From the IMG/VR virus record IMGVR_UViG_3300010430_000014, positions 1 through 64,000 of that record: a stretch of 64,000 bases of DNA. One strand, given 5' to 3'. This document shows positions 10,639 through 29,553 of this stretch, one piece after another. The translations under genes and the position numbers were made by a program. Each line of letters opens with the position of its first letter. Within the stretch, counting starts at the first letter, position 1. The notes beneath the pieces are model-generated. The model searched no databases and was not told the origin of the DNA. It saw nothing but the letters and a program-made list of their open reading frames with translations. Source of the stretch: a virus.

Positions 10639-11159
10639 GTCTTGAAATCCCCGAAAACCCCACTTTTAAATAACCTTCCGAAAATAAAGACATATCATTA
10701 TATAACCTTTTATAATAACCCATTTTTGCATATATAGGTTTAAATTACCGAATAATACGTTATTTTTTAATGTATTCCGCAGGTTGAAATTTTGAAAATT
10801 TATTATATATAGTATTCATATAAGGTTTTTGCAACTTTATTAATGAAAATGAAAAAATTGTAAAAAATTTGTAGCGGTAGGCGGTAGGTTCAATCAATCA
10901 ATTGAATTGGATCGGTCGGTTTTCAATTGATTGGCATTGTAATTGCATATAGTTAATTGATTAATTGATTGCATTCCAATTGATTGAACTTGACTTGATT
11001 GCAATTGATTAATTGATACAATTGCCTTGCAATCTGATAACCTTAACTTGATTGCACTTGAAAGCTTCATAATGGAATGCAATCCCATAAGGTATAGCAA
11101 TGCCACTTCAATATGATATCGTCTTATATATGGCAAATGAAGCGACATTGCTTTCAAGT
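10639..11159. other. Non-coding AT-rich region with iteron-like repeats
   Basis: About 520 bp without a supportable gene, between a rightward operon and the end of a leftward one. From about 10885 it holds many overlapping copies of AATTGATT, three copies of TTGATTGCA, and a tandem GCGGTAG pair at about 10873-10886. Iteron arrays of this sort occur at replication origins and partition sites, but no initiator is identified here. Confidence 0.55.
11097..11151. repeat. Imperfect inverted repeat downstream of the leftward operon
   Basis: GCAATGCCACTTCA (11097-11110) pairs with TGAAGCGACATTGC (11138-11151), 12 of 14 positions, with a 27-nt loop. It sits just beyond the stop at 11160 of the leftward gene. 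There is no T-tract on the minus strand, so it may be a transcript-end hairpin rather than an intrinsic terminator. Confidence 0.5.
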
Positions 11160-11468
11160 TTAGATACCTTGATTGACCGTAGCAATATAAGCATTCATAG
11201 TATCCAGACAATGACTTTTGAAGGGCATATTAGCAATCAAAGGTATAAGCTTCACTTGATTACTTTCAATATGCCTAAAGTCAAATGCATTGTAAAGATA
11301 CCATGCGAATTGACGCAATGTTTCTTGACCTATATCAGATAGCAAATAGGTATCGATAATCCCGTCAATTTCTATCAAAGCAATATATTCAAATTCGCTT
11401 TTAGTATCCAGTATATCAGTAATGGAATTCAAAGCTTTGAAGCATTCGGTCTTATTGTTATCATTCAT
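11160..11468 (-). CDS. Hypothetical protein (102 aa)
   Basis: On the minus strand with AAAGGAAAA before the ATG. Acidic, mixed alpha/beta, with no recognised motif. Last gene of the leftward operon, separated from the previous one by a large nested hairpin. Confidence 0.6.
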   Translation of the reverse strand: MNDNNKTECFKALNSITDILDTKSEFEYIALIEIDGIIDTYLLSDIGQETLRQFAWYLYNAFDFRHIESNQVKLIPLIANMPFKSHCLDTMNAYIATVNQGI

Positions 11469-11522
11469 TGTTTTATTTTCCTTTCAATGGTCTTATATTC
11501 AATTAAGTGCAATCGCTTCATA

Positions 11523-11602
11523 TACGGTAAATGATAAGCTTTAAAAGCAGAAAACCGATACCACTATAAAGCTAATTATGATATCGGTTTTCTTTTACCG
11601 TA
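11523..11602 (-). terminator. Nested inverted repeat between leftward genes
   Basis: Inner perfect 12-bp arms AGAAAACCGATA (11549-11560) and TATCGGTTTTCT (11582-11593), plus outer perfect 9-bp arms TACGGTAAA (11523-11531) and TTTACCGTA (11594-11602). The right arms abut; the left arms are 17 nt apart. On the minus strand the inner stem is followed by GCTTTT, so it could partially terminate. The nesting suggests a structured RNA. Confidence 0.6.
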
Positions 11603-11611
11603 TTAAATGGA

Positions 11612-12754
11612 CTATGCGAATTTAGATGTTTTTAAATAAGTGAAAAAATCGCCATGATTAACTCCAGATAAATCATTGACTGAATTCTCATTCAAATATT
11701 CTGCAATCAAGCTTGACGTTTTATTATTCAATCCTTCCTGCTTCACCAAATCAACTACTTCAGATATAATCGATTTATCTGCAATCCCATATTGACTTGA
11801 CCAGTAGGCAAAGTCTTTCACTTCAGTATTGACCTTGCTATCAGATACACTGTTATCTGCAATCAAGTCAAGATCATTGCCTATAGCAATCAAGCTTTTG
11901 ACAGCAAGCTTCATGCTGTTCGGAGCAAATATCATTTGATTATTATTTGCATTCTTAAAAGCCTGCCATTGCGCTCTGGTAGTGGCATCAATAGTATCCA
12001 ATGAAGTGAAGTCAATTCCATTAATGAAAAATGAAAATTCGCTCAATTTATCCGCTTTACTGGACTTTGCGAATTTATGATTAAATTGACTTTTGAAAAG
12101 TTCGTATAATGCCTGAACTTCACCCTGCTCAAGACCTTCAATTACCGATTTAAACTCTGAAGTTTTTGCAGTCAATTTAGAATGCTGTTTTCTATTAATA
12201 ATGGTATCTGGATTACTATCGACAATTGCCATTGTCGGTAAAATTTTGGCAAAGTTACCATGCAGAGAATTAACTGCATTCAATGTTGACTTGATATCCT
12301 TAGCCGTGCTTGCGGTAAATTGATTGCATTCCATAATTACTTTGGTCAAAGCTTCAATATCGGATTGCATATTGACGGTATCTAATTGAAGGTTTTTAAT
12401 TTCTTGACGCAAAGCTTCAACTTGAGCAAATTTTTCGGCCGTCATAGAAGCTTCAGAAATGACCGAATCTTTACTTGCAAGCTTTGCAGCTAAACTACTT
12501 TTTTGTAATTGATTATTTGCATTTGCTGTAATGGGATTGACGTTTTTACTTGCATTTAATTTGTCTTTTAAACTCATGATTTTTCCTTTCATTTGGTTTA
12601 AATCAGCATAAATAGTGGGATTAAAAATCCTATGAATGATTATTTCATTTAATTCATTCTTAAAATATTGATTGACTGAAAAGCAATCAATTCTTGACTC
12701 TGCATATGGAATTAAGTGATTAATCATTGCGCTATTGCCAAAGGTATTTTCCAT
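11612..12754 (-). CDS. Hypothetical protein with internal in-frame start (380 or 321 aa)
   Basis: Leftward. The long form starts at 12754 behind AAAGGAAA. An internal ATG at 12577, also behind AAAGGAAA, would give a 321-aa form beginning MSLKDKLN. The ssDNA-binding protein gene at 37388 begins similarly (MSLQDRLN). The region is Lys/Ser/Asn-rich with a coiled-coil-like stretch (about 105-170 of the long form). No family recognised. Downstream of an RHH regulator and a small membrane protein, likely on one transcript. Confidence 0.7.
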   Translation of the reverse strand: MENTFGNSAMINHLIPYAESRIDCFSVNQYFKNELNEIIIHRIFNPTIYADLNQMKGKIMSLKDKLNASKNVNPITANANNQLQKSSLAAKLASKDSVISEASMTAEKFAQVEALRQEIKNLQLDTVNMQSDIEALTKVIMECNQFTASTAKDIKSTLNAVNSLHGNFAKILPTMAIVDSNPDTIINRKQHSKLTAKTSEFKSVIEGLEQGEVQALYELFKSQFNHKFAKSSKADKLSEFSFFINGIDFTSLDTIDATTRAQWQAFKNANNNQMIFAPNSMKLAVKSLIAIGNDLDLIADNSVSDSKVNTEVKDFAYWSSQYGIADKSIISEVVDLVKQEGLNNKTSSLIAEYLNENSVNDLSGVNHGDFFTYLKTSKFA

Positions 12755-12778
12755 AATTTTTTCCTTTCTTTTTAAGTG

Positions 12779-12940
12779 TTAGTCCGATAGCTTATTCATT
12801 TGTTCCATAAATACCGAATAAGCTTTTACCTTACCTTCAATTGCTTTGCCTGTAGGATTATTCCCATTGAAAGCATTCCAGATAGTAAATAAGCAAATTA
12901 CGAAAACGATTGCTAATAAATAACCAATTAAAAATTTCAT
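12779..12940 (-). CDS. Small membrane protein (53 aa)
   Basis: Leftward; ATGA overlap with the RHH gene and GAAAGGA upstream. A single N-terminal membrane helix (residues 3-21) is followed by a polar, basic domain. Unknown role. Confidence 0.65.
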   Translation of the reverse strand: MKFLIGYLLAIVFVICLFTIWNAFNGNNPTGKAIEGKVKAYSVFMEQMNKLSD

Positions 12941-13242
12941 GATTCATTCCTTTCATTGTTTAAAATGCTTTCCAAGTCAGTTAAGTCAAAAACTGATTTT
13001 GAGTCAATTTGATAAGTGATGCAATTGTCTTTCAAGTATTCCCTTTCAAATTTTGCGTTTTCAATTGCTTCAAAGCTATCTGCAATTTCTTTTTTATTTT
13101 CCATATAAAATTCAAAAAATTGCGCTATTGCATTTGAGCAAAGCTTTGAAAGATTGACCTTGATTTTTTCTTGCATTTCAAGTTCTTTCAATTGCCTTGC
13201 TAAGTCCATTGGAATTGAGATGTTAGTTCGTTTTGTTTTCAT
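12937..13242 (-). CDS. Ribbon-helix-helix-type regulator (101 aa)
   Basis: The N-terminus KRTNISIPMDLARQLKELE followed by a helix and KVNLSKLCSNAIAQF fits a MetJ/Arc or CcdA-like RHH DNA-binding domain. The C-terminal half is an acidic helical region. First gene after a strong minus-strand promoter, so probably autoregulatory. The divergent region beside it contains repeated TTATTAGATT half-sites that could be its operators (inference). Confidence 0.6.
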   Translation of the reverse strand: MKTKRTNISIPMDLARQLKELEMQEKIKVNLSKLCSNAIAQFFEFYMENKKEIADSFEAIENAKFEREYLKDNCITYQIDSKSVFDLTDLESILNNERNES

Positions 13243-13315
13243 TGTTTTTAATTCCTTTCATGTAGTTAAATTGTTTTGTAGTTGTATAGTGTTTTGTGAT
13301 TGCCATTGAAGTTAA

Positions 13316-13344
13316 AATATAATTCATTAAAATGCTATTGTCAA
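13316..13344 (-). promoter_or_regulatory. Sigma70-type promoter for the leftward operon
   Basis: On the minus strand: TTGACA (13344-13339), 17-nt spacer, TATATT (13321-13316). Near-consensus and about 70 nt upstream of the RHH start. Confidence 0.8.
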
Positions 13345-13557
13345 GTGTTTATACCTATTTTATTAAAGAAAAAGGGATTATTTTTTAAGTAATTGAATAA
13401 TATCTAATTAAATCAATTAATTAATTGTTATCAAATAATCAATTACGGTATTGTAATTAATTCTTATCAAATAACTGATTATTAGATTATTTCATTTGAT
13501 TGAAAAATATTTTTTTGCTTTAATTGAATATCTAATAATATTAAGTACTTATAAAAT

Positions 13558-13587
13558 TTGACAAGTCAATTTTTCTTATGATATACT
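13558..13587 (+). promoter_or_regulatory. Sigma70-type promoter with TTGAC-AA-GTCAA
   Basis: TTGACA (13558-13563), 18-nt spacer, TATACT (13582-13587). The -35 is embedded in the small inverted repeat TTGAC-AA-GTCAA, also present at the 16752 promoter. Drives the rightward block. Confidence 0.75.
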
Positions 13588-13593
13588 GTTTTT

Positions 13594-13623
13594 AATCTAA
13601 TAAATTCAATTAGTTATTAGATT
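13594..13623. promoter_or_regulatory. Operator-like inverted repeat at the transcription start
   Basis: Perfect 10-bp arms AATCTAATAA and TTATTAGATT with a 10-nt spacer begin at about +1 of the rightward promoter, the classic place for a repressor site. Confidence 0.65.
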
Positions 13624-13748
13624 AATTGATTGACCGGAAAAACCTTACCAGAAAAAAGGAAAAAAAGCGATCAATCAATTAGGCAGGTGTGATTGAATCA
13701 TTTTTTAAGTGGCGTATGCTGAGAGATTGATTAAAAATAATTAATCAA

Positions 13749-13783
13749 TAACAAAGCTTCCACAGAAAAATTTTTCAATTAAT
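13749..13783 (+). repeat. Leader element, copy 1
   Basis: TAACAAAGCTTCCACAG then AAAAATTTTTCAATTAA. Conserved leader motif found four times in 13.7-23.4 kb, each in front of a gene start. Confidence 0.65.
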
Positions 13784-13832
13784 TGTCAATTAATTCACAT
13801 TTCAAATCACATTCAATTAAAGGAGAGTAATT

Positions 13833-14663
13833 ATGAAAAAACATCATTTAATTAATCAATCAACTGGCATGACGTACTGTGGCATTAACCCTCTCAATCA
13901 ATTAATTGCATTTGAATATGAAAACGATTGGTTTGATTCAACTGTGCATCCAATTGATCATACCAATTATAAAGAAGTCCTCTGCATTAATTGTACGAAA
14001 CAGCATGACATTCAATTGATTGAAAAGTTTGAGTATGATGCATTCTTAATTGATTACAATAACCGATTGCCTAAAAGTGGTAGGGCAATGAAATTTTTTA
14101 AATCCCAATCCCGATTGAATCGAAAAGCCAATCAATCGAAAAAACCTTCCAATACCATTCAATCAAAACCTTCCGTACCTTCTAAAGAGAAGCAATCCAA
14201 ACCTGTTCAATCCAATCAATCAATCAAAACCTTTCCCAAATCATCTAAAGGCAAGGCAAGGCAAGAAAAGAAAAAAGCCAATCAATCAAAGGCTACTGAA
14301 TCAAAATGTGTTGTAATTGATAAGCCAAAAAAATCATTGATTGAAAAGCCCAAAGATGATATAATTGTATTAAAAGATGAAGTCAAACCATTGATTGATT
14401 TGTCTAAAGGTAGTCAAACGATTATTGCAATTGAAGAAGTTCCAATTGATAAGGATTGGCGATTCGGTGATCCAATTGAAAATGATGTAATTGAATTGGA
14501 AGTCAATGACGATTGGAAAATTGTTAGGCATGATAAGAAATTGAATCAATGGAAGTTTGTCAATCGAATCACCATTAAAGGATTGCCAAAATGGTCTGAT
14601 GATTCTGAATGGATTAATTATAAAGATGCTTGTCAATTAATCAATGACGGATACTGTGATTAA
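13833..14663 (+). CDS. Hypothetical protein with basic linker (276 aa)
   Basis: AAAGGAG upstream. The N-terminal 65 residues contain paired cysteines (C16, C50, C53) and could form a small zinc module. Residues about 85-165 are a Lys/Ser/Gln/Pro-rich low-complexity linker (repeated NQSK, QSKP). The C-terminal 100 residues are folded-looking and acidic. First gene of the word-biased block. No family recognised. Confidence 0.65.
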   Translation: MKKHHLINQSTGMTYCGINPLNQLIAFEYENDWFDSTVHPIDHTNYKEVLCINCTKQHDIQLIEKFEYDAFLIDYNNRLPKSGRAMKFFKSQSRLNRKANQSKKPSNTIQSKPSVPSKEKQSKPVQSNQSIKTFPKSSKGKARQEKKKANQSKATESKCVVIDKPKKSLIEKPKDDIIVLKDEVKPLIDLSKGSQTIIAIEEVPIDKDWRFGDPIENDVIELEVNDDWKIVRHDKKLNQWKFVNRITIKGLPKWSDDSEWINYKDACQLINDGYCD

Positions 14664-14670
14664 TCAATCA

Positions 14671-14737
14671 CCCTATTCCAGAACCCTATTCCAGAACTCA
14701 ATTAATCAATCCCTATTCCAGAACTCGATTAGGGATT
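14671..14737 (+). repeat. CCCTATTCCAGAAC repeats with hairpin
   Basis: Three exact copies (14671-14684, 14684-14697, 14711-14724) lie between two genes; a shortened copy recurs at 17703. The last sits in a perfect 8-bp hairpin (AATCCCTA 14708-14715, TAGGGATT 14730-14737) ending 3 nt before the ribosome site of the next gene. Confidence 0.65.
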
Positions 14738-14756
14738 GATTGAAAGGATTAATATC

Positions 14757-15176
14757 ATGCAATTAACAATTAATACTGAACATTTAAATGCAATTGAAAA
14801 GTATTTGCAATTGACTTTCAATCAAACGAATCGAATCAGCGAAAATCATGTAATTATTAAGACTAATGCATTTCATTTCTATTCATTGCTTAGTCGAATG
14901 AATGAGGAATTGATTGAAGCTGATCTATTGAATGCCTATACAATTCCTTCTAATGGAATCAATGATGGTGGTATTGAATATAATGATGATGAAATGCAAT
15001 TGATTCGATCAGAAGAGATGATCGATAAGATTAGATTGATTGATCAAACTCCAGAACCCAATCAATGTAGCAATTGCATATGTTGTATGAATAAGGAATT
15101 TAATCCATTTTGCATTGAAAGGAATAAATCAGTTCAATTGAATGAAACCTGTATTAATCATGAAAGGAATGATTAA
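14757..15176 (+). CDS. Hypothetical protein with C-terminal cysteine cluster (139 aa)
   Basis: Start chosen at 14757, where GAAAGGA is well placed; the frame is open to 14736. The C-terminal third has C-x2-C-x-C-C-x8-C-x12-C (CSNCICC onward), probably a metal site. Not recognised. Confidence 0.6.
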   Translation: MQLTINTEHLNAIEKYLQLTFNQTNRISENHVIIKTNAFHFYSLLSRMNEELIEADLLNAYTIPSNGINDGGIEYNDDEMQLIRSEEMIDKIRLIDQTPEPNQCSNCICCMNKEFNPFCIERNKSVQLNETCINHERND

Positions 15177-15376
15177 TGAATTATAAACGGCAATTGGAAT
15201 TGAAAGCAGATCCAGATCAATTGGCAATTGAGGAATTGACCAATCCTAAAATCAATCAATTAAACTTCACTGATTGGATTGCCGATAAACGTTCAATTGG
15301 TAAAAAGAAATTGAATCGAATCAGTAAAAGGCAAAGACGATTTGCAATTAAAAAGAAGCAATTGGGATTGCGATAA
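15176..15376 (+). CDS. Small basic protein (66 aa)
   Basis: TAATG junction with the previous gene. C-terminal half very basic (KKKLNRISKRQRRFAIKKK), suggesting nucleic acid binding. Followed by a terminator. Confidence 0.6.
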   Translation: MNYKRQLELKADPDQLAIEELTNPKINQLNFTDWIADKRSIGKKKLNRISKRQRRFAIKKKQLGLR

Positions 15377-15383
15377 TTCAATC

Positions 15384-15419
15384 AAGGCATATGGTCTGTA
15401 CTTGACATATGCCTTTTTA
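15384..15419 (+). terminator. Rho-independent terminator overlapping a promoter
   Basis: Perfect 10-bp stem AAGGCATATG (15384-15393) and CATATGCCTT (15406-15415) with a 12-nt loop and a run of T. Its right half overlaps the -35 of the next promoter. Confidence 0.85.
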
Positions 15420-15430
15420 TATTCTATAAT
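15402..15430 (+). promoter_or_regulatory. Consensus sigma70 promoter
   Basis: TTGACA (15402-15407), exactly 17 nt, TATAAT (15425-15430). It restarts transcription immediately after the overlapping terminator. Confidence 0.85.
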
Positions 15431-15481
15431 CAATTTTTCAATAACGTTCAATCACTTAATTAAATGAAAGGAATTAATCAT

Positions 15482-15748
15482 ATGAAGCAAAAAGATGCAA
15501 TCAATGGAGATACTTTAGGGGATATACAATTGGAATCATTTAATCATCCAATCAAGCAAACCTATGATCATTTTATGATAGTAAAAGCCGATGCCGAATC
15601 AATTGCCGAATCAATTAATCACTATCCATTATCTGAAATTGAAAATCAGGAAAAGCTTAATCAATTGATTAATACAATCGAAACCTATCGAGATAATATC
15701 CTATCACATCTGCATTGTATTGATGAAATAATTAACTCACCTGTTTAA
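15482..15748 (+). CDS. Hypothetical protein (88 aa)
   Basis: Start at 15482 fits GAAAGGA; an upstream in-frame ATG at 15464 precedes the ribosome site and is rejected. Acidic, helical C-terminus. Transcribed alone between a promoter and a terminator. Not recognised. Confidence 0.6.
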   Translation: MKQKDAINGDTLGDIQLESFNHPIKQTYDHFMIVKADAESIAESINHYPLSEIENQEKLNQLINTIETYRDNILSHLHCIDEIINSPV

Positions 15749-15778
15749 TCAATCAATCATACAATTAAATAATTAAAG

Positions 15779-15819
15779 ATCCCTGTTGCGATTCATTCAA
15801 TTGCAATCAGGGATTTTTA
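15779..15819 (+). terminator. Rho-independent terminator
   Basis: Stem ATCCCTGTTGC (15779-15789) with GCAATCAGGGAT (15803-15814), one bulged T, then TTTTTATT. Confidence 0.8.
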
Positions 15820-15851
15820 TTGCCTAAATTCCTAAATGAAAGGATCTATCA

Positions 15852-15947
15852 ATGGATAAACAGTCAATCCTAATAGCTCTATTTTCAATCATAATTCTTT
15901 TAATATATCTGTATCCCGATATTTTAAAATGGCTAATCTCTCATTGA
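15852..15947 (+). CDS. Very small membrane protein (31 aa)
   Basis: AAAGGA upstream. MDKQS followed by a 20-residue Leu/Ile/Phe/Tyr helix and a short tail. A single-span micro-protein; real or not, the composition is clearly membrane-like. Confidence 0.5.
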   Translation: MDKQSILIALFSIIILLIYLYPDILKWLISH

Positions 15948-15979
15948 AATCACTCAATCAAATGAAAGGAATCAATCAA

Positions 15980-16192
15980 ATGGCTAATAAGAAATTCATT
16001 GTCTTTTGGCAAATGGGTAATCGAATTGGATCAATTGAATTCACTAATTCCAATTGGATTGAAGTTCAAAGTCTATTTACTTTCAATGTAATTCAAACAG
16101 ATGATTCAGGAACTATTCATTTGGAATTGCTTGGAAAAGCCAATTCAAATGTAATTAAACTATCCGATTTAATCATTCAATCACTTAATTAA
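15980..16192 (+). CDS. Hypothetical protein (70 aa)
   Basis: Start at 15980 follows GAAAGGA; the longer frame from 15929 is rejected because it overlaps the micro-protein and lacks a ribosome site. Beta-rich. Not recognised. Confidence 0.6.
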   Translation: MANKKFIVFWQMGNRIGSIEFTNSNWIEVQSLFTFNVIQTDDSGTIHLELLGKANSNVIKLSDLIIQSLN

Positions 16193-16256
16193 TCAATCAA
16201 TCAATATATTAAAAAAATAGTAATGATTCATTAATTGATAATCATCCATATGTATA

Positions 16257-16290
16257 TGACAAACCTATCACAGAAAATTTTTCAATTAAA
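16257..16290 (+). repeat. Leader element, copy 2
   Basis: TGACAAACCTATCACAG then AAAATTTTTCAATTAAA, in front of the gene at 16309. Confidence 0.65.
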
Positions 16291-16308
16291 CTATGAAAGG
16301 AATCAATT

Positions 16309-16734
16309 ATGGGAAAGCAAATGATTAAAACAGATTTGAATTATGAACAATTGGCAGAAGCATTTCAGATTGAATTAGAGAATGTAGTATTACTCTATAA
16401 AGTAATCAACAATGACATTGACTTAGGCATATTTGAATCAGTTAAACAATTAAGAAGTCAATGCTACAATCCTCCCAAAGTAATTGATGAACAAATGGAA
16501 GCATTGAATGGATTGATTGAAGGATTTGGCATTGAAGCACTCACAAATGAAAACTTTTGGCATTCTCATTACTGGCAAGATACCTATGGATTATATGTCA
16601 ATCAAGGTGAATCCTATGCTTTGACAATCGTTTATAATGTGATTGATGATATATTTGAATTTACGTCAATGGGTGATTTTGTTGAATCTATGGAGAATCA
16701 ATTGCAATCAGAATCCGATGAAAATAATCTGTAA
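16309..16734 (+). CDS. Hypothetical protein (141 aa)
   Basis: GAAAGGA upstream. Acidic, mostly helical, ending in SESDENNL. Sits between leader copy 2 and the next promoter, so may form its own transcription unit. Not recognised. Confidence 0.6.
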   Translation: MGKQMIKTDLNYEQLAEAFQIELENVVLLYKVINNDIDLGIFESVKQLRSQCYNPPKVIDEQMEALNGLIEGFGIEALTNENFWHSHYWQDTYGLYVNQGESYALTIVYNVIDDIFEFTSMGDFVESMENQLQSESDENNL

Positions 16735-16751
16735 AATAATGTATTTTTTTC

Positions 16752-16780
16752 TTGACAAGTCAATCAATATTATATATAGT
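16752..16780 (+). promoter_or_regulatory. Sigma70-type promoter with TTGAC-AA-GTCAA
   Basis: TTGACA (16752-16757), 17-nt spacer, TATAGT (16775-16780). Shares the 13 nt TTGACAAGTCAAT with the 13558 promoter. Predicted start falls at the beginning of leader copy 3. Confidence 0.8.
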
Positions 16781-16791
16781 TCCATTTTATA

Positions 16792-16825
16792 TGACAAACC
16801 CTTCACAGCAGTTTTTTTCAATTAA
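16792..16825 (+). repeat. Leader element, copy 3
   Basis: TGACAAACCCTTCACAG then CAGTTTTTTTCAATTAA. The most diverged copy; it begins at about the predicted transcription start. Confidence 0.65.
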
Positions 16826-16866
16826 CTACAAACAATTAACAATCTAATCAATCGAAAGGAGTCATT

Positions 16867-17694
16867 ATGGATCACAAATTTTTCAATCAATTAATCGAAG
16901 ACATTAACATTACTATTGGATTACACATTGATTCAATGGAAAACATTCATTCCAAATGCATTTGTGATGATCCTGAATGTCATGGCAAATGTCCTCATTG
17001 TTTAACAAAAATAAATATTCACAACCTATCCAATGCAATCACTTCTTTAAATGACTACACTATTAACACTTCCAATCTCATTCAATTAATTGATGCTGAA
17101 GCATTTCGATATGCATTAGAAAACCATACTGATTTAAAATGTGTCAAATGCTATCCTGTATTCAATGATCCTAATGCAGAACTCGATTACCCTAATTCAG
17201 AACCCGATTCATTTGCAATTGAAGCAACTTATGAAAGGTATGCAATGAATCCAATGGGATATCATATTGGATATGAAACTGTTGTATTTAAATGGATGGC
17301 AATTAAAAAGAGTCAATTAGAAATACTTGGATTACCTAAATTGCTTTCCAATTGGGTTGTAATGATTGATAAGTATGTAATTGAATCAAAAGATCTTCCT
17401 GATAATGAAGATCCAATTCATAATGCCGATTGCGAATTTGATGATGTTTTCGCTTCATTTGATAATTGCGATTGCGCTGATTCATTTGAAGGCTATTGGC
17501 AACCAGATGATGACTTCTTTTATCAAGAAATGAATCATATCATTGAAATGATGCAAATCCCTGAAGCATCATTCAATCCAGATAAACGTGAATGGTGGTT
17601 AGGTGATATCTCATTCAATCTCGATGAATTTGAATCAATTAAAGAATATCATGAATGTTGTATAGAAGATAATGGAATGCCTTTTACTGGATAA
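16867..17694 (+). CDS. Cysteine-rich hypothetical protein (275 aa)
   Basis: GAAAGGAG upstream. Residues 31-45 (CICDDPECHGKCPHC) and CVKC near 94-97 form likely zinc sites. A second acidic Cys-containing stretch (DNCDC) lies near 195. The C-terminal half is acidic with many Trp/Phe. No family recognised. Confidence 0.6.
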   Translation: MDHKFFNQLIEDINITIGLHIDSMENIHSKCICDDPECHGKCPHCLTKINIHNLSNAITSLNDYTINTSNLIQLIDAEAFRYALENHTDLKCVKCYPVFNDPNAELDYPNSEPDSFAIEATYERYAMNPMGYHIGYETVVFKWMAIKKSQLEILGLPKLLSNWVVMIDKYVIESKDLPDNEDPIHNADCEFDDVFASFDNCDCADSFEGYWQPDDDFFYQEMNHIIEMMQIPEASFNPDKREWWLGDISFNLDEFESIKEYHECCIEDNGMPFTG

Positions 17695-17747
17695 TTGATT
17701 ATCCTATTCCAGAACTCAATTAATCCTATTATAGAAAGGAATTAATC

Positions 17748-17891
17748 ATGGCGAAATGTATTCAATCAATCAAAGATGGTAAAGTTAAACGTGTATCCAA
17801 TGATCAAGCAAAAGAAGATGTTCAATCAGGCAAATGGAAGTATATAGGTAAATCAGAATACGCACGAATCAAACAATCAAAGGAGAAATAA
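17748..17891 (+). CDS. Small basic protein (47 aa)
   Basis: GAAAGGA upstream. Pattern IKDGKVKRVSNDQAKEDV ... GKWKYIGKSEYAR resembles short phage proteins that read K...V.R.....A...V..G.w.YvpKs.wk. Role unknown. Confidence 0.6.
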   Translation: MAKCIQSIKDGKVKRVSNDQAKEDVQSGKWKYIGKSEYARIKQSKEK

Positions 17892-17895
17892 GCCT

Positions 17896-18204
17896 ATGAT
17901 CTATTATGTAATTGATTGTGGATTCAATCAAACAAATTATCCTGATTTAATTGGGCAATTCTTTTCAAATGCTCCATCTTATTCAATTGTTAAATTATTA
18001 CCTGATCCTTATCGAAAACATAGCTGTTGGAATTGTGATAAGGATTGGATTGTAAAAGTTGAATTGAATAAAACAACAATTAATCTATCAGGTGAAAAAA
18101 CTCAATATTGTCCTGAATGCAATCAAAAGTCTTCCATTGCAAGTAATTGGATTCAATCAAATAATAATCCATATCCATTTCCAAAACCTAAACTAATTAA
18201 ATGA
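17896..18204 (+). CDS. Zinc-ribbon protein (102 aa)
   Basis: CWNC at 44-47 and CPEC near 72-75 form a zinc ribbon with a long loop. Start follows AGGAG. Not assigned. Confidence 0.6.
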   Translation: MIYYVIDCGFNQTNYPDLIGQFFSNAPSYSIVKLLPDPYRKHSCWNCDKDWIVKVELNKTTINLSGEKTQYCPECNQKSSIASNWIQSNNNPYPFPKPKLIK

Positions 18205-18216
18205 AAGGAGTCAATT

Positions 18217-18768: not shown

Positions 18769-18784
18769 TTAAAAGGAATCAATT

Positions 18785-19009: not shown

Positions 19010-19011
19010 TT

Positions 19012-21396: not shown

Positions 21397-21412
21397 TTGA
21401 AAGGAGTCAATT

Positions 21413-21706: not shown

Positions 21707-21710
21707 TCAA

Positions 21711-21998: not shown

Positions 21999-22008
21999 AG
22001 TACATATT

Positions 22009-22263: not shown

Positions 22264-22409
22264 TCTATAAACTTTACGGAACTTACAAAGGCAATCGAGA
22301 GCTAATTGATCAAGCGGATACATTGGCTGAAGCTCAATATATGCAAAGTGAATATCAATTAGCATTTGGTAATGAATGGTTAATTACAATTAAAAAGGAA
22401 AGGAATTAA
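22260..22409 (+). CDS. Small protein (49 aa)
   Basis: ATGA overlap with the previous gene; GAAAGGGG upstream. Pattern YGTYKGNRELIDQADTLAEA is typical of small phage proteins in which a short beta hairpin is followed by a helix. Role unknown. Confidence 0.6.
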   Translation: MIYKLYGTYKGNRELIDQADTLAEAQYMQSEYQLAFGNEWLITIKKERN

Positions 22410-22412
22410 ATT

Positions 22413-23306
22413 ATGTATCAATCAAAAACTACAAGAGATCCGAATAATTACAATGATTTAAACTTCTATCTCCAAAATGATAAGAGAGGCAAACGCAAAT
22501 CAATTGATGATAGACCAATTGATAATAATACAAGAGTAATCAGACGATCTCACAATTCAATTGCAATTAAATTGTGGGATACTGATATAATCACATTCTA
22601 TGACAATGGATCAATTCAATTGGATACAGGTGGGTGGAAAACAGTATTAACAAAAGAACGAATGAATCAATACCTACCTTCAACCATTCGTGTTTATTCA
22701 GAACAATACATTTGGTATATTCGATTCAATAAAAAGCAATATCTTTTTGAAAACGGAATGTATTTAACTTATGATCGAATTATAACTGATTCCGATGGCA
22801 ATCCAATTGCAGAACATTCCAAAGATGTTGAAAAGAAAAAGCGAAGTCAATTGAAAAAAATCAATGAATACATTCAATTATTTCTTAAAGCATTACAAAA
22901 TGGTGAAGTACCTGCTCCATCTCAAGGTGATTGCTTTATTTGCCAAGCATTCAATGGTCAACCAATTGCCGATAAAATGAGTGAAGGTAAATTAGTCAAT
23001 GGTAAACTGGAACTCACTCCATTCAAAGACAATCCCCATTGTGATTGCATTCAATCACATATCGATGAACCTTATTTCGTTCCTACCTTACTCTGGAATG
23101 CAATTAAATCCGAATGCTATGATGCTGAAGGAATATTTGGCAATCCTAAAATGACTTATGGATTAAGTCGATGGGATAAGCATAACATATCATGTTGGTT
23201 TAATCATGATTCTAATTTAGAACATAAACCATTTGCAAGTGATATGACAATTAAACGATTGCAAAAGGTTATGAAACAATTTATCTTGAAGCAATTAAAC
23301 TTCTAA
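22413..23306 (+). CDS. Conserved phage protein (297 aa)
   Basis: The order NNTRVIRRSHNSIAIKLWDT, ITFYDNGSIQLDTGGWKT, RMNQYLP and WYIRF is a signature of a large phage family of unknown function. The second half has GDCFICQAF near 171-179 and HCDCIQSHIDE near 210-220, supplying a probable zinc site, then FVPTLLWNAI. Members sit among early accessory genes in many phages. AAAGGAAAGG upstream; ends in the stop that starts leader copy 4. Confidence 0.65.
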   Translation: MYQSKTTRDPNNYNDLNFYLQNDKRGKRKSIDDRPIDNNTRVIRRSHNSIAIKLWDTDIITFYDNGSIQLDTGGWKTVLTKERMNQYLPSTIRVYSEQYIWYIRFNKKQYLFENGMYLTYDRIITDSDGNPIAEHSKDVEKKKRSQLKKINEYIQLFLKALQNGEVPAPSQGDCFICQAFNGQPIADKMSEGKLVNGKLELTPFKDNPHCDCIQSHIDEPYFVPTLLWNAIKSECYDAEGIFGNPKMTYGLSRWDKHNISCWFNHDSNLEHKPFASDMTIKRLQKVMKQFILKQLNF

Positions 23307-23337
23307 CAAAGCAACCACAGAAAATTTTTCAATTAAA
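23304..23337 (+). repeat. Leader element, copy 4
   Basis: TAACAAAGCAACCACAG then AAAATTTTTCAATTAAA. The first TAA is the stop of the upstream gene and no promoter is visible, so this copy is probably active as RNA. Confidence 0.65.
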
Positions 23338-23355
23338 AAACGAAAGGAATTAATT

Positions 23356-24102
23356 ATGGAAGATCCATATGAAACAATTGAATATCGTGGTTTCAACATC
23401 AACATTCATACTGACATTGATCCATTAGATCCAATTGATAATCATCATTGGTTCGGAACTATGATTACATGGCATCGTAATTATTCATTAGGTCATGAAC
23501 AACCTAAAAGAGATCCAGATGAATTCCTACAAGATCTTGCAATCAATGCCGATCAATCATTACAAGATGTGATCCTTTATTGGGAAGAATTGCCTCATTC
23601 AAAATATGCTGAAAAACAAATCAAAACATCAATTCAAAGAAGAATCGATAAACACTATATCATCCTACCTTTATACCTTTACGATCATTCCGGCATTACA
23701 ATGAGAACAAGTCCATTTTCCTGCCCTTGGGATTCAGGTCAAGTTGGATTCATTTATGTATCTAATGATAAGGTAAAAAAGGAATTCAATCGAAAACGAA
23801 TGTCAAAGAAGTTAAAACAAAAAGCAATTGATTTGATGATAGGTGAAGTCAATACTTATGATCAATATCTAACCGGAGAAATTTTTGGTTACATGATTGA
23901 ACCTACCGATAAGAATAAATCAATTAATTGTGATGATTCCTGTTGGGGATTTTATGGTTATGATCATGAAAAGTCTGGATTGCTTGAAATGTCAAAGGAT
24001 GCAATTAATTGTGCAATCAAATCTTATAAAGAGGAATGTAAACAAAACCATCAAAGGCAAATGCAAATGAATCAATTCATGCAATCCTGTTGGGCATTCT
24101 AA
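23356..24102 (+). CDS. Conserved phage protein with DHSGITM...CPWDSGQVGFIYV motif (248 aa)
   Basis: Residues about 109-137 contain YDHSGITMRT, SPFSCPWDSGQ and VGFIYVS, a highly characteristic stretch of a family found in phages and bacteria. Its His/Ser/Cys/Asp residues look like an active site, but the function is unknown. Lys/Arg-rich central helix; C-terminal helix with Gln/Met. GAAAGGA start cassette after leader copy 4. Confidence 0.65.
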   Translation: MEDPYETIEYRGFNINIHTDIDPLDPIDNHHWFGTMITWHRNYSLGHEQPKRDPDEFLQDLAINADQSLQDVILYWEELPHSKYAEKQIKTSIQRRIDKHYIILPLYLYDHSGITMRTSPFSCPWDSGQVGFIYVSNDKVKKEFNRKRMSKKLKQKAIDLMIGEVNTYDQYLTGEIFGYMIEPTDKNKSINCDDSCWGFYGYDHEKSGLLEMSKDAINCAIKSYKEECKQNHQRQMQMNQFMQSCWAF

Positions 24103-24128
24103 CAAACAAATGAAAGGAGATAATTGAA

Positions 24129-24497
24129 ATGACATACGATGAAATATGTGAAAAAATTGAAATAGGTGATTACAATGATTATACTGATATGAATGATATT
24201 AATATTGAAATTAGTTTAATTGAGTATAGTCCAATTCGTAATCCTAAAACAAATGAATGCCTATTCTGGATCGATGATTGTAAAGGTGATTTACCAAATG
24301 ACGATCATGAAATGATAATCAAATCAGTTGACATTTCAATTGATGATATTAAAGAATACTTAGAGAAATGGGCAACTGATGGATTTTTCTCATTCATTGG
24401 ATCTGATAAACAAAAAGAATTAGATCAATTGGATAATGATTATTTAGCAGGTATAATCCAGAGCATTACTATGTACGATGGACACTTTACTAATTAA
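24129..24497 (+). CDS. Hypothetical acidic protein (122 aa)
   Basis: AAAGGAG upstream, preceded by an AACAAACAAA-type leader. Acidic, beta-rich N-terminal half. Not recognised. Confidence 0.6.
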   Translation: MTYDEICEKIEIGDYNDYTDMNDINIEISLIEYSPIRNPKTNECLFWIDDCKGDLPNDDHEMIIKSVDISIDDIKEYLEKWATDGFFSFIGSDKQKELDQLDNDYLAGIIQSITMYDGHFTN

Positions 24498-24527
24498 ACT
24501 TCTAACAAACAAACGAAAGGAATCAAT

Positions 24528-24695
24528 ATGGATGTATTCAACAAACATCAGAAAGCAATTGCAATTAAAACATTGCGAATGTCTGATGAAATGGCAGATG
24601 TAATGGGGGGAACGACTAAAAAAGAAGCAATTGAATTCCTAAAATCCCAAGGCTATTCAGATAAACAAATAACAAACATGATTGAAAGGAAATAA
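24528..24695 (+). CDS. Small conserved-type phage protein (55 aa)
   Basis: CGAAAGGA upstream. IKTLRMSDEMADVMGG then TKKEAIEFLK is a familiar short phage protein pattern of unknown role. Leader AACAAACAAACGAAAGG. Confidence 0.65.
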   Translation: MDVFNKHQKAIAIKTLRMSDEMADVMGGTTKKEAIEFLKSQGYSDKQITNMIERK

Positions 24696-24700
24696 TTAAA

Positions 24701-24985
24701 ATGCCAATTACATTAGAACAAGCAAAGCAATTGAAATATGGTGATTACCTTTATGCTAATTGTCTTTTTAATGCTGATGAAAAAACTCCAAGAAAATATA
24801 AAATTAATGGAAAACCTAAAACTTGGAAACGTGATCCTGATAGAATTAAAGTACCTTTAAAATGGGGATTATATGAATATGGTGAATTGACCAATGGAAC
24901 ATATGAGGGTAATCAGTTTACCTATTTTTTAAATGAAATGGAATTAACTGAAGAAGCTGCAATTAAACAATCAACAAAGGAATGA
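24701..24985 (+). CDS. Small conserved-type phage protein (94 aa)
   Basis: ITLEQAKQLKYGD at the start and GKPKTWKRDPDRIKVPLK then WGLYEYG match a widespread small phage family, probably a compact barrel. Function unknown. Confidence 0.7.
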   Translation: MPITLEQAKQLKYGDYLYANCLFNADEKTPRKYKINGKPKTWKRDPDRIKVPLKWGLYEYGELTNGTYEGNQFTYFLNEMELTEEAAIKQSTKE

Positions 24986-24990
24986 ATCCT

Positions 24991-25227
24991 ATGGCAACTA
25001 ACAAAGAGCTTGACCGAATGATAATGAATGTTGAACAATCAATTGGAATAGTTATGGATAAAATCAATTGTCTTGTTACCGTTTGGGATCATAAAAAACA
25101 AAGGCTTAATGATGAATTTCTTCAATTGCGATCACAACAATCCAAACTGATTGAAGTATCAACCAAACTTCAATTGCAACATTGTGATAACTATCAAAAA
25201 ACACTTAAAATAACGAAAGGAGAATGA
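24991..25227 (+). CDS. Helical protein (78 aa)
   Basis: Start at 24991 gives proper spacing from AAAGGA; an ATG at 24982 is too close. Coiled-coil-like helix over most of its length. Not recognised. Confidence 0.55.
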   Translation: MATNKELDRMIMNVEQSIGIVMDKINCLVTVWDHKKQRLNDEFLQLRSQQSKLIEVSTKLQLQHCDNYQKTLKITKGE

Positions 25228-25229
25228 TT

Positions 25230-25868
25230 ATGGAAGAAGAAAAATATGTTATAGGAATTGTAGAGTCAAGTGGTGGTCGATTAGTAATTCACCTTGAAAC
25301 AGGCAAAGTACTTAATTATTTTGTCGATGATGCAGATTATACAGCAGCATTTGCATCAATTAATCATTTTAATATGGTTGAATGGCATGAACGTTATCCA
25401 TTTGATCAAAATAGTGATTCATTTGATATCCTTGATTTAGGATACACAAATAAAGATGGAAAATATATACCTCCCGATGAAGATTATCGAAGTCAATCTC
25501 ATTGGGATCATGTCTATGAATTAAAACAAATATTAATTGATGAAGTAATATTACATATTCAAAATGATCTTCATGAAGTTCCTGATACAGATCCAATTAC
25601 ACAACTCATTAATCAATTACCCATTCCTAATCTTTATCATTACCTATCTGAAAACATGACTCACCAAAACAGATTCAAATATCTAATTGATCAAGGCTTA
25701 ACTGAATTCAAACATAGTCATAAAGAGTGCAATGATCGTTTTGGATTAGCTTGCCCTCAGTGTAGAACTCCAATTGATTCATTTGATGAATCTTTAATTG
25801 ATCAATCAACACGATATTATTGTGATAAATGTAAAGTTATAATCACAATTCAACCATTGGAGGATTAA
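25230..25868 (+). CDS. Hypothetical protein with C-terminal zinc ribbon (212 aa)
   Basis: AAAGGAG precedes the ATG at 25230. The first 130 residues are acidic and mixed. The last 45 contain CPQC and CDKC, a zinc ribbon. Not recognised. Confidence 0.6.
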   Translation: MEEEKYVIGIVESSGGRLVIHLETGKVLNYFVDDADYTAAFASINHFNMVEWHERYPFDQNSDSFDILDLGYTNKDGKYIPPDEDYRSQSHWDHVYELKQILIDEVILHIQNDLHEVPDTDPITQLINQLPIPNLYHYLSENMTHQNRFKYLIDQGLTEFKHSHKECNDRFGLACPQCRTPIDSFDESLIDQSTRYYCDKCKVIITIQPLED

Positions 25869-25869
25869 T

Positions 25870-26070
25870 ATGATACCTCAATTAGAAATAACTCAACAAG
25901 GATCAATATCAATTGAACAAGATCTATACATAGGTGTTCTAATTGGAGATTTTGGATTACAAGTAGCAAAAGATGGTAGAATTTGGATCTGTTTAAATGA
26001 TCAAGCTCTAATTAGATTTAAACCATTAACTAATGAAATGATAAAACTATTAAAAAAGAAAGGAAATTGA
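25870..26070 (+). CDS. Hypothetical beta-rich protein (66 aa)
   Basis: GGAGGA upstream, within the 3' end of the previous gene. Repeated strand patterns. Not recognised. Confidence 0.55.
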   Translation: MIPQLEITQQGSISIEQDLYIGVLIGDFGLQVAKDGRIWICLNDQALIRFKPLTNEMIKLLKKKGN

Positions 26071-26072
26071 TT

Positions 26073-26267
26073 ATGGCATATCCAATTAAATATCTTAATG
26101 CAGAAGACTTTGTTCAAATGAAAGAAAACATTTCTGCAACAATCTTTGACTATGAACCTGAATTAGCAGGAATTAGTTCATTTAGATTACATGAAGAAGA
26201 TTGCAATGCTATTGCAGAACTCATTATGAAAAACCTCAATTATCAATGGGATGAAAAGGAGAATTAA
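26073..26267 (+). CDS. Hypothetical protein (64 aa)
   Basis: ATG at 26073 preferred over the TTG at 26067 by spacing from AAAGGAAA. YPIKYLNAEDFVQMK N-terminus and helical C-terminus. Not recognised. Confidence 0.55.
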   Translation: MAYPIKYLNAEDFVQMKENISATIFDYEPELAGISSFRLHEEDCNAIAELIMKNLNYQWDEKEN

Positions 26268-26269
26268 TC

Positions 26270-26623
26270 ATGGCTAAAAAAATAATTCAATTAAGCAGAC
26301 CTAAAGTATTTAATATTGAAACCTATAAACTGTGGGATATTACAGAAGAAAACCATCGAAGAAAATTAATATGTACTTCTCCTAAAGGTGATTCAATTGA
26401 ATTTTCAATTGATATTAAACGAGAATCATTTGCACCTGAATTCAGTTGTATTTACAGAAATAAAGATGGTCAAGGTTGTGTTCTATATAGAGCAAAACCA
26501 AATGATCATGTTCAAAAATTCTGGATTGATCTTGGAAGTGAATATTTTAAAAGAACTTCCGGCAATCAGGATTTCATTCGGGATAAGTTTCTAAAAGAAT
26601 TCGACTTTAATTGGGAGGGTTAA
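26270..26623 (+). CDS. Hypothetical beta-rich protein (117 aa)
   Basis: AAAAGGAG site. Repeated beta strands (FAPEFSCIYRNKDGQGCVLYR). Not recognised. Confidence 0.55.
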   Translation: MAKKIIQLSRPKVFNIETYKLWDITEENHRRKLICTSPKGDSIEFSIDIKRESFAPEFSCIYRNKDGQGCVLYRAKPNDHVQKFWIDLGSEYFKRTSGNQDFIRDKFLKEFDFNWEG

Positions 26624-26627
26624 TCAT

Positions 26628-27143
26628 ATGATTAAAAAAAGAAAATACTCTGACAAATGGATATTGGCAATTAAATCTTATTCAAATGTTTCAGCAGATA
26701 AATATCTTGACATTGTTTTTTGTTATTTGCCTCATAATAAAATAACTCCATATGTTACATGGATCTACAATCATTCAGATGGTGGGTTTCATGAAGGACA
26801 TTATTTCAATCTCATTAACAAAGCTATTCTTGATTTTTTAATAAGAGGTAAAAAAGCAGTACGTTTCAATGATGATTGGATTAAACAACATGATGCAATT
26901 GAAACTCATTATGTTAGATATCTTAAAGAACATAGTTGTTGGGAAGAATGCAATGCTGAAGATGCTCAAATGATCTCTGTTTATCTCCATAAGCCGGAAG
27001 GTGGAATTGAATGCATTTCAGATCATTATGATCCTAAAGATGCAATGCGGATTGTCCGGTGGATTTCCAATCAATATGAATTACCAATTCAATATCAACC
27101 TAAAGATGTTCATTATACTAAATTACAACCAATTATTAAATAA
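26628..27143 (+). CDS. Hypothetical protein (171 aa)
   Basis: GGGAGGG site. Mixed fold, with SCWEECNAEDAQ in the middle and a YDPKDAMRIVRW helix. Not recognised. Confidence 0.55.
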   Translation: MIKKRKYSDKWILAIKSYSNVSADKYLDIVFCYLPHNKITPYVTWIYNHSDGGFHEGHYFNLINKAILDFLIRGKKAVRFNDDWIKQHDAIETHYVRYLKEHSCWEECNAEDAQMISVYLHKPEGGIECISDHYDPKDAMRIVRWISNQYELPIQYQPKDVHYTKLQPIIK

Positions 27144-27152
27144 GGAGAAATT

Positions 27153-27338
27153 ATGGCGCAATTAACTAAACATATAAATGTACGAATTACTGAACCTGTT
27201 AGTAAACAAATTGATTCAATCAAAGAAGAATTGACTGAAAAAGATGCTATGATTTATACTCGATCTCAAGTGATCTTTATGTTGATTGTTAGAGGGATTG
27301 AAAAATACAATGAAAATCAATTAAATGAAATTAATTAG
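27153..27338 (+). CDS. RHH-like small protein (61 aa)
   Basis: HINVRITEPVSKQIDSIKEEL followed by YTRSQVIFMLIVRGIEKY matches the ribbon-helix-helix layout (strand, helix, turn, helix), so probably a DNA-binding regulator. It lies just upstream of a promoter carrying an inverted repeat (27361), a natural target. Confidence 0.6.
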   Translation: MAQLTKHINVRITEPVSKQIDSIKEELTEKDAMIYTRSQVIFMLIVRGIEKYNENQLNEIN

Positions 27339-27360
27339 TTAAATCAACAGGTTTTAGAGC

Positions 27361-27389
27361 TTGACACCTGATTTAAGGTGTGTTATGCT
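27361..27389 (+). promoter_or_regulatory. Sigma70-type promoter with operator-like repeats
   Basis: TTGACA (27361-27366), 17-nt spacer, TATGCT (27384-27389). The spacer holds the hairpin ACACCTGATTTAAGGTGT, and CAGGT about 12 nt upstream pairs with ACCTG. Likely regulated, perhaps by the adjacent RHH protein. Confidence 0.7.
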
Positions 27390-27438
27390 TATATAATCAA
27401 TCAAAAGACCATAACAAACAAACGAAAGGAAAAATTTT

Positions 27439-27924
27439 ATGAATGATTGGAAAAAATTCAATAATGAAATCAAAGAAGCAATTGATCAGCCAAGTAAAAA
27501 AGATATGCTTCAAATGAATGATTTACACTTAGCTATTTATGAACTCGATCAAGAAAAAATTTCTTTATCCGAATCATTAAATAAAGTCGATGAACAATTA
27601 AAAATACATTATGATCGAGTTAGTGAATTACTTGATTCAAAAGATCCTCCCAATTGGGCATGGACTTGGGAATTTAAAAAGTCTAATATTAAATGGAAAG
27701 AAGAATTCATTAATCGATTAGGCAAAGCTGAAGCAAACAAAATTCTATCCGTTGCCAAACAAAAATCTTATCCTAAGATTGGCATTCAATATATCGATCC
27801 TAATCCTGACCATATTCCCGAAACTCCAATTGCAAAATTAAAGAAAGGAAAACCTGTAAGATTAGATCTACCCATTCCTAAATCCAATCCTTTATTTGAT
27901 AGATTAGAAAAATTAAAAGGTTAA
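27439..27924 (+). CDS. Hypothetical protein (161 aa)
   Basis: CGAAAGGA upstream, with the AACAAACAAACG leader. Coiled-coil N-terminal half (about 28-68), then WAWTWEFKKSNIKWKEEF and a Pro/Lys-rich tail. First gene behind the 27361 promoter. Not recognised. Confidence 0.6.
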   Translation: MNDWKKFNNEIKEAIDQPSKKDMLQMNDLHLAIYELDQEKISLSESLNKVDEQLKIHYDRVSELLDSKDPPNWAWTWEFKKSNIKWKEEFINRLGKAEANKILSVAKQKSYPKIGIQYIDPNPDHIPETPIAKLKKGKPVRLDLPIPKSNPLFDRLEKLKG

Positions 27925-27930
27925 TCACAA

Positions 27931-29553
27931 TTGTATGTTCAATTACCACTCTGGAAATGTTATCTTTATAGTCTTATCCAGAGATGGAGATTGTACAAAG
28001 CAATTAATACCAATCGCTATCGATGGGGTTTTAATAAAGAAGAAGTTCTTTTGTTACGTCAAATGTTTTCTAAATATATGGTGAAAGGAGGAATGAAAAA
28101 ATTAAATGTAATTAGGTATGACCGATTGATTGATAAAGTCTTAGGTCATAGAATCGTGGTTGCTGATAAAGAAGAAATTGAATTAGCCCACAGGTTATTA
28201 ATCATAAAAAAAATCAATTACAGGAGGTTAATCATGGAAATTAAACAAGTTAAAGAATTTGGTAAAGAAGTTGGATTGAAGCTTGCTGAAATGAACAAAT
28301 TGGCAGAAGATGAATTGATCCTTGAAATCATCCGTAATGTAGAACCTAAAATCCAATACAGCAAAGAACTTGTAGCATGGTATAATGAATTGGATGATGC
28401 TTTATTTGATAAAGCTGAAGCTGAATCAGGAGCTACTTCTGATGGAGAATCAGCAGCAAATGGTGACGTTTCAATTGCCGATGTGATCGAAGTCATTGAA
28501 GGATACACAAAAGTTGCTGAATTGAAAGAAATCCTTACTGATAACGATGTTGCTCCATTATTTGCAACATTCGATCCTGCACCTTTCAAAATGCCTAAGA
28601 AGTTAAAAGCTGCAATGATTGAACATCTACAAACACCTGCTGAAAAACCTGATACCAATGGTGATGATCAAACAGAAGAAATCCTTGAATTAATCAATGA
28701 AGCTGAAGATGAGGATGGATTAGTTACAATCTATGGTGAATATCAAACTGTATTCAATGATATGGAAGTGCCAGATGATATTGATGCAGAAGCACTTCAA
28801 ACGGCAATGGTTGCTCACGTTGAATCAAAAAAAGGCACTACTCCCGAACCGGATAAACCAATTTCATTGAAAGATCGATTGGCTAATAAAGGCAAAAGCA
28901 AAAAGGACAAACCTGAAGTTGATCTTGCTGAAAAATTTGATTGGTGGACACCTGATGCTGATGGATTCAGTGTTGATGATGCATTTGCAAAAGTGGAAGA
29001 ATTGAAAATGACTGAATTGCGTCAATTTGCAAAACACATTGGTCTTTCAATTGGTGTTGGTGGTGGTAATACAAAAGATGTGATTCTTGATAAGGTTGCC
29101 AGTAAGATTCAAGAAATTACTGAAGGTGTTACTCAATCTACTACTGCCGGAGAAATTGAACTTACTGCTCAATTAATTAAAGATGCAGTAAAGGCAAAGG
29201 ATCGGGAGGCTTTAGCTGAAATGTGTGAACAAGCAGACATTCAATTGAATGCACTCCAGAAAAAATCAATCCCTGGAATGGAAAAGAAATTGCTTGAAAC
29301 AATCAAAGACAAAACTGATGATAAATCTACTACAACCAAAGGTAAAGCTAAACTATCTGCAAAAGAACCTATTTCAGATGCACAATCCGTTTATGCAATT
29401 ATGGAAGCAATGGTTCTTGAAGGTAAATCGGAAGATGCAATCACAAAGAAAGTATCTCCTATTTACAAAGAAAAAGGTCAATCAATTATCTTTATCAAAA
29501 AGCGTGTCAATACCATGACTCAGATTATTAAACTCGACAATAATCTGGAATAA
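27931..29553 (+). CDS. Hypothetical acidic protein with internal in-frame start (540 or 439 aa)
   Basis: The long form begins at TTG 27931. Inside the same frame an AGGAGG site precedes an ATG at 28234, giving a 439-aa form (MEIKQVKEFG). The first 101 residues are basic and aromatic; the remainder is acidic, with two SAP/LEM-like helix-turn-helix segments (LKEILTDNDVAPLF and LRQFAKHIGLSI) and the SLKDRLANKGK motif. A structural or DNA-associated role is possible. No family assigned. Confidence 0.7.
   Translation: MYVQLPLWKCYLYSLIQRWRLYKAINTNRYRWGFNKEEVLLLRQMFSKYMVKGGMKKLNVIRYDRLIDKVLGHRIVVADKEEIELAHRLLIIKKINYRRLIMEIKQVKEFGKEVGLKLAEMNKLAEDELILEIIRNVEPKIQYSKELVAWYNELDDALFDKAEAESGATSDGESAANGDVSIADVIEVIEGYTKVAELKEILTDNDVAPLFATFDPAPFKMPKKLKAAMIEHLQTPAEKPDTNGDDQTEEILELINEAEDEDGLVTIYGEYQTVFNDMEVPDDIDAEALQTAMVAHVESKKGTTPEPDKPISLKDRLANKGKSKKDKPEVDLAEKFDWWTPDADGFSVDDAFAKVEELKMTELRQFAKHIGLSIGVGGGNTKDVILDKVASKIQEITEGVTQSTTAGEIELTAQLIKDAVKAKDREALAEMCEQADIQLNALQKKSIPGMEKKLLETIKDKTDDKSTTTKGKAKLSAKEPISDAQSVYAIMEAMVLEGKSEDAITKKVSPIYKEKGQSIIFIKKRVNTMTQIIKLDNNLE

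Follow-up and report, generated by a model that had tools for sequence, protein, structure and literature searches.

Short DNA words that organise chromosomes, such as Chi, KOPS and the architecture-imparting sequences, show a skewed or graded distribution, are strand-polar and are 5–8 bp long or longer. DNA uptake sequences and HIP1 form a further class of abundant words, which are 8–12 bp in length and occur genome-wide. Here, we describe a field of the tetramer CAAT, and its complement ATTG, in the early region of a phage. The field resembles the chromosome-organising words in that a very frequent short word lies within genes and in all frames, with exchangeable sites and a density that varies along the replicon; it is unlike them in that CAAT is 4 bp long, strand-neutral and confined to phage early units. 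A polar word of the Chi or KOPS type is thereby rejected, both strands being enriched 4- to 7-fold. With uptake sequences and HIP1 it shares a massive over-representation inside coding DNA, but it forms a graded field from one hub. Uptake or packaging words had been suggested in an earlier note on this DNA; we find no positive evidence for them, and a 4-bp driver that is confined to early units and decays over 30 kb is unlike either, and is not an 8–12-bp genome-wide word.

Two groups of phages provide further comparisons. The T5-type first-step-transfer region, for which we used the terminal repeat (1–12521) of Serratia phage Slocum (Demerecviridae, T5-like), offers a likeness in early, first-entering DNA with a word usage of its own. 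The Slocum repeat differs in that CGCC and CCCC are raised and AGA lowered, the change is a step and not a gradient, CAAT is unchanged and the signal is weak after synonymous shuffling. Large siphophages such as Rhizobium phage L338C and those like Pseudomonas PaMx31 share a distant homologue of the AAA+ ATPase (27–32% identity), and in L338C no word peaks in any one region (chi2/df at most 2.2). A limited full-text search of the open-access literature found no description of such a word field.

The window analysed is the first 64 kb of virus record IMGVR_UViG_3300010430_000014 (labelled G000 in comparisons), which has a full length of 89,161 bp and a GC content of about 30%. Among its products are a family-A DNA polymerase in split form, with uracil-DNA glycosylase (UDG) and exonuclease domains, as well as an AAA+ ATPase, a UvsX-like recombinase and a DnaB-like helicase; its tail genes are of the siphophage type. 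Rfam and ARAGORN gave no matches in the window. A search of the phage collection with the record returned no close match, and one AAA scan for a host across 84,980 genomes returned distant, unrelated matches only. Its nearest relatives, all of them IMG/VR contigs from uncultivated viruses, are G001 (107,962 bp), G002, G003, the more distant G004 and several shorter contigs. G002 and G003 are counted as non-independent because they are 93% identical to each other; the fully independent hubs compared are three (G000, G001 and G004), plus G002. Genes are termed early on the basis of promoters, gene order and gene type.

The earlier note had singled out the octamer AATCAATC, which occurs 30 times on the plus strand and 7 times on the minus strand of the 89,161-bp record, against 1 and 2 copies of the reversed word used as a control. 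Most copies (27 of 37) lie between 10,892 and 21,852, none at 21.9–27.4 kb, and the remaining ten are scattered up to 53.3 kb, with none in 54–89 kb. The first copy, at 10,892, agrees with the statement that the word is absent before 10.8 kb. The statement that it is frequent to about 27 kb is imprecise for the octamer itself; the underlying tetramer CAAT/ATTG is raised to ~44 kb. A Markov-corrected count lacking any excess had been named beforehand as the refuting outcome; an excess is present, with 20 copies of AATCAATC at 12–18 kb against 1.8, 4.6 and 10.8 expected under Markov orders 1, 2 and 3, and 31 copies of CAATTG against 5.6, 13.5 and 22. Since tetramers account for most of the octamer signal in these models, we focus on CAAT: most of the octamer excess is inherited from shorter words, and the CAAT/ATTG excess is the primary fact.

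This excess was measured against a synonymous shuffle in which every protein sequence and its codon usage were held fixed. In hub genes pooled from four genomes, 1313 copies of CAAT/ATTG stand against an expectation of 814 (z=32), while the runner-up tetramer reaches z=17; single hubs give z of 13–18, and the top tetramer in control gene sets from two other phages has z of ~6. Along the operon the CAAT z declines from 8.7 through 7.9 to 2.2 in G000 and from 10.7 through 10.3 to 6.1 in G001. The main pentamers are raised 4- to 7-fold in both orientations on the coding strand, all reading frames carry the CAAT excess beyond codon usage, and non-coding gaps are as rich in CAAT as genes. RNA folding of early genes is no different from that of late genes (z −2.54 versus −2.50). 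As both orientations, all frames and the gaps are affected while RNA folding is ordinary, the pattern is a property of double-stranded DNA and not of protein, codon or RNA. The frame and gap counts confirm the earlier description of a word present both within and between genes and in every frame and, with the strand symmetry, support its placement at the DNA level.

CAAT sites show neither a fixed spacing nor a helical periodicity of ~10.5 bp, only a preference for overlap, and phased A-tract curvature is ruled out by the lack of that periodicity. Sites of the integration host factor (IHF) type (CAA-N4-TTR) are also rejected: a gap of 4 occurs 110 times, a gap of 5 occurs 100 times and gaps of 6–12 occur 63–93 times, and the only clear peak in the CAA/TTR gap scan is at the overlapping CAATTG. 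Short tandem AATC runs are present, but arrays are short only; with the core devoid of long arrays and its sites scattered, repeat expansion, as the earlier note had envisaged, is not supported, and a repeat or microsatellite block is further excluded by the same field in relatives at ~72% DNA identity.

The field is organised around a divergent early control region, the hub, whose sigma-70-like promoters at 13.3–13.8 kb are strong and from which two operons run in opposite directions (table 1).

Table 1. Features in and beside the CAAT/ATTG field of the studied phage (positions in the window).
Feature	Position	Strand	Remarks
Terminator-like hairpin of neighbouring operon	10601..10634	+	Just outside left edge of field
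Leftward early operon	10888..13242	-	CAAT 29–37/kb; sharp stop at ~10.88 kb
380-aa coiled-coil-like protein of leftward operon	11612..12754	-	42% identical in G001; similar kind in G004
Ribbon-helix-helix (CcdA/CopG-like) regulator beside hub	12937..13242	-	Candidate DNA binder
Divergent early control region (hub)	13243..13832	.	Non-coding; sigma-70-like promoters on both strands; CAAT/ATTG 47–65/kb around hub
Hub promoter TTGACA-17-TATATT	13344	-	Sigma-70-like
Hub promoter TTGACA-18-TATACT	13558	+	Sigma-70-like
Core of word field (first rightward early operon genes)	13833..22300	+	CAAT/ATTG up to 65/kb
First rightward early gene, 276 aa	13833..14663	+	Orthologue at peak in relatives
Consensus sigma-70 promoter TTGACA-17-TATAAT inside core	15402..15430	+	Another at 16752
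Decaying part of field	22300..44000	+	CAAT from ~45 to ~20/kb

CAAT density reaches its maximum of 65–72/kb in the hub region at 13.3–14.8 kb, and in the core the pentamers ATTGA/TCAAT reach 39/kb over a background of ~5. Rightward, CAAT decays to about 15–18/kb over ~30 kb of the operon; leftward, it holds at ~35/kb along the whole of the short leftward operon. Beyond the core, accessory genes are followed by those for UDG/exonuclease, DNA polymerase A, AAA ATPase and UvsX-like recombinase, and the rightward decay spans small uncharacterised genes and replication genes alike. Exponential fits give an e-fold distance of 9–14 kb (r2 0.87–0.95), with 13.8 kb and r2 0.90 for G000. The left edge of the field falls in the gap between convergent genes. 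Within the block at 10.9–13.8 kb there are also 14 copies of AAGCTT, with 5 elsewhere in 89 kb and 0 in the 108 kb of G001.

A comparison with relatives, which the earlier note had proposed, recovers the same CAAT profile in IMG/VR contigs at 27–86% protein identity. When 13 contigs are aligned on the AAA+ gene, mean CAAT density along the operon is 57, 45, 38, 29, 26, 28, 22, 21 and 20 per kb. The left edge in G001 also lies between convergent genes and the arrangement in G004 is similar. A five-letter word score trained on G001 predicts the profile in the other genomes. The distant phages that share the 23356 gene (G005 and G006) have no such CAAT field. A young block, as had been suggested, is not supported, since relatives with ~72% DNA identity or less carry this graded profile at the syntenic position. 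One gene is found at different distances from the hub: the orthologue of 21413–21706 has a score of 0.15 at 7.6 kb, as in G000, against 0.57 at 1.2 kb and 0.40 at 0.3 kb; in G001 and G004 it lies about 1 kb or less from the hub. The orthologue nearer the hub carries the stronger score, and the signal thus follows position and not gene.

Individual sites behave differently from their density. When G002 is compared with G003, CAAT ranks first in conservation among 80 tetramers at 4.5–12 kb from the hub, and 25th of 102 at 20–31.7 kb. Isolated substitutions in this pair spare CAAT sites only slightly relative to a random distribution (ratios 0.92, 0.83 and 1.16), and in a comparison at ~72% identity the core does not exceed the other regions in codon identity once usage is allowed for, so that individual sites are not strongly protected and density matters more than sites. 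This is the pattern of conservation that selection on density with turnover of sites would give; a mutational equilibrium might conceivably yield it too.

The explanation that we favour, tentatively and at somewhat short of even confidence, is that selection acts on the double-stranded DNA of the early units to keep CAAT/ATTG dense, the word most likely being read by a DNA-recognising factor; among the suggestions of the earlier note, this favours protein-binding sites. Such a factor would be phage- or host-encoded and nucleoid-like or regulatory in nature, and would read CAAT on the first-transcribed, possibly first-entering, DNA. It would respond to local density and not to fixed sites; with density mattering in this way, sites may turn over while density is kept. 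We propose that the field weakens away from the hub because DNA that is transcribed or enters later needs it less, and that the role of the factor may be to load or coat early DNA so that it is expressed or protected. A 4-bp word is very short for recognition by a protein, and the absence of a spacing rule also counts against a CAAT-binding factor. We put forward with about the same reserve the wider reading that this phage clade may possess a 30-kb positional code, in which a 4-bp strand-neutral word is selected for its density, graded from an early promoter hub and read by the proposed factor for the first-used incoming DNA. If true, phage DNA would hold a layer of information that is new in kind. 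If selection for a dense, graded 4-bp word is indeed at work, a DNA-level demand tied to early transcription or entry shapes the synonymous sites, and even the amino-acid composition, of tens of early genes. It would point to a host or phage factor that acts on incoming phage DNA, and would mean that inferences on codon usage and horizontal transfer drawn from early phage genes can mislead.

The ribbon-helix-helix regulator and the first rightward early protein lie in the neighbourhood of the hub and are no more than candidates for the CAAT-reading factor. The product of 12937..13242 scores a weak 18.1 bits against CcdA (cut-off 22.4) and its G001 counterpart 25.5 bits, above the cut-off; as the reader of CAAT its position is suggestive, yet it fails in G004, where no counterpart was seen. 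The 276-aa protein has conserved residues C16, C51, C54 and H5 and a long basic linker rich in K/S/N/Q, and its predicted structure (mean pLDDT 45) is too poor for use. With regard to a possible modification of CAAT by a phage DNA methylase or deazaguanine system, a comparison of 25 selected G001 proteins with Pfam identified only methyltransferases of the Methyltransf_11 and similar types, and no DNA methylase or TGT/Que family.

An alternative that we consider unlikely is that the field marks the first-entering DNA, the word hiding it from a host defence or nuclease or improving its cover by an injected protein, with the gradient reflecting the order of entry. The sharp left edge and monotonic decay would fit, as would the distinct words found at near-equal GC in the first-step-transfer repeat of Slocum (0–12.5 kb). 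However, an edge between convergent genes in G000 and G001, and probably in G004, fits transcription units as well, and the Slocum words are different ones, arranged in a step, which survive synonymous shuffling weakly (top z 5.7).

Somewhat less credence is due to an evasion of AT-binding silencers or spurious promoters, by which early genes, expressed before a phage anti-silencer accumulates, would have their long AT-runs, TpA steps and TANNNT motifs resembling −10 elements broken up, with CAAT as a by-product. The T4 protein MotB, which acts early and has been examined in connection with H-NS (PMC7827196), counts in its favour. So does the composition of the core, which has G/C bases at even intervals (variance ratio 0.62–0.76 versus 0.9–1.0), fewer AT-runs of 8+ and 10+, fewer TpA steps and TANNNT at about half the level. 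Simulations with synonymous codons count against it: penalties on AT-runs and TpA reach the observed levels of both, but yield CAAT at ~26–34/kb where 48.5 and 54.4 are seen and CAATTG at ~1–3 where 5.7 and 7.6 are seen, and lower AATT, which is raised in the real core. Avoidance of AT-runs, TpA or −10 elements as the sole driver is thus insufficient. A bonus for CAAT, or for CAAT and GAAT, applied to late-gene codons brings most features of G000 near to those observed, the lower levels of TpA and AT-runs among them, although the best bonus overshoots CAAT itself (64.7 versus 48.5/kb). The CAAT bonus brings the loss of AT-runs and TpA along and the converse fails; the AT-run effect is therefore best read as a consequence. 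TCAA, AATT, GAAT and TCAAT fit worse as drivers than CAAT or CAAT with GAAT, and CAA fits about as well as CAAT. In G001 the CAAT bonus accounts neither for the higher CGA nor for all of the loss of TpA and AT-runs, which leaves a second component, of raised CGA and extra TpA loss, in this genome.

It is very unlikely that the early block imitates, or derives from, the genome of another organism rich in CAAT words. The codons of core genes are also shifted (TTG 0.27 versus 0.04, CGA 0.42 versus 0.11), as an imported dialect would have it, but the gradient runs smoothly over unrelated genes and modules, is clade-wide and depends on position, and the AAA scan found no host. Equally improbable is a context-dependent mutator, or slippage, that creates words on early-transcribed DNA. 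Turnover of sites and the short tandem AATC runs would be expected of such a process; against it, no plausible chemistry would generate CAAT on either strand alike while leaving GC content unchanged, CAAT is over-conserved near the hub, and the amino-acid composition of core proteins is shifted too, with N, Q and S up. From these patterns we infer selection and not mutation. A preference of early mRNA for particular codons or codon pairs, which the differing codon usage of early and late genes might suggest, is hardly credible and already largely refuted by an excess that survives fixed codon usage and extends to all frames, non-coding gaps and both strands with RNA folding unchanged.

The record has several further features. 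CTAG has 0 copies in its 89 kb, where block models expect ~250, and 0 in every clade relative examined. DNA polymerase A is split over ORFs at 29592–32993 in an order kept in relatives: a protein with UDG and 3′–5′ exonuclease domains comes first, its end is overlapped by a 224-aa insert ORF, and the polymerase domain lies on a protein of its own. Left of the CAAT field, at 398–4211, lies a cluster of radical-SAM-like, methyltransferase-like and glycosyltransferase-like genes. At 85.1–88.95 kb of the record a 1281-aa protein, likely a tail or fibre repeat protein, has many repeats of the type SLDALL.K that give rise to a peak of the word GCATCC, and similar repeats occur at the C-terminus of another ORF (L009:6855-12077). 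In or near the early intergenic gaps, degenerate CCTATTCCAGAAC repeats are found at 14670–14724, 17159–17208 and 17692–17741, and a repeated leader-like element (ACAAACC..TCACAG.AAATTTTTTCAATTAA) lies 5′ of early genes at 16253–16293, 16788–16828 and 13745–13785.
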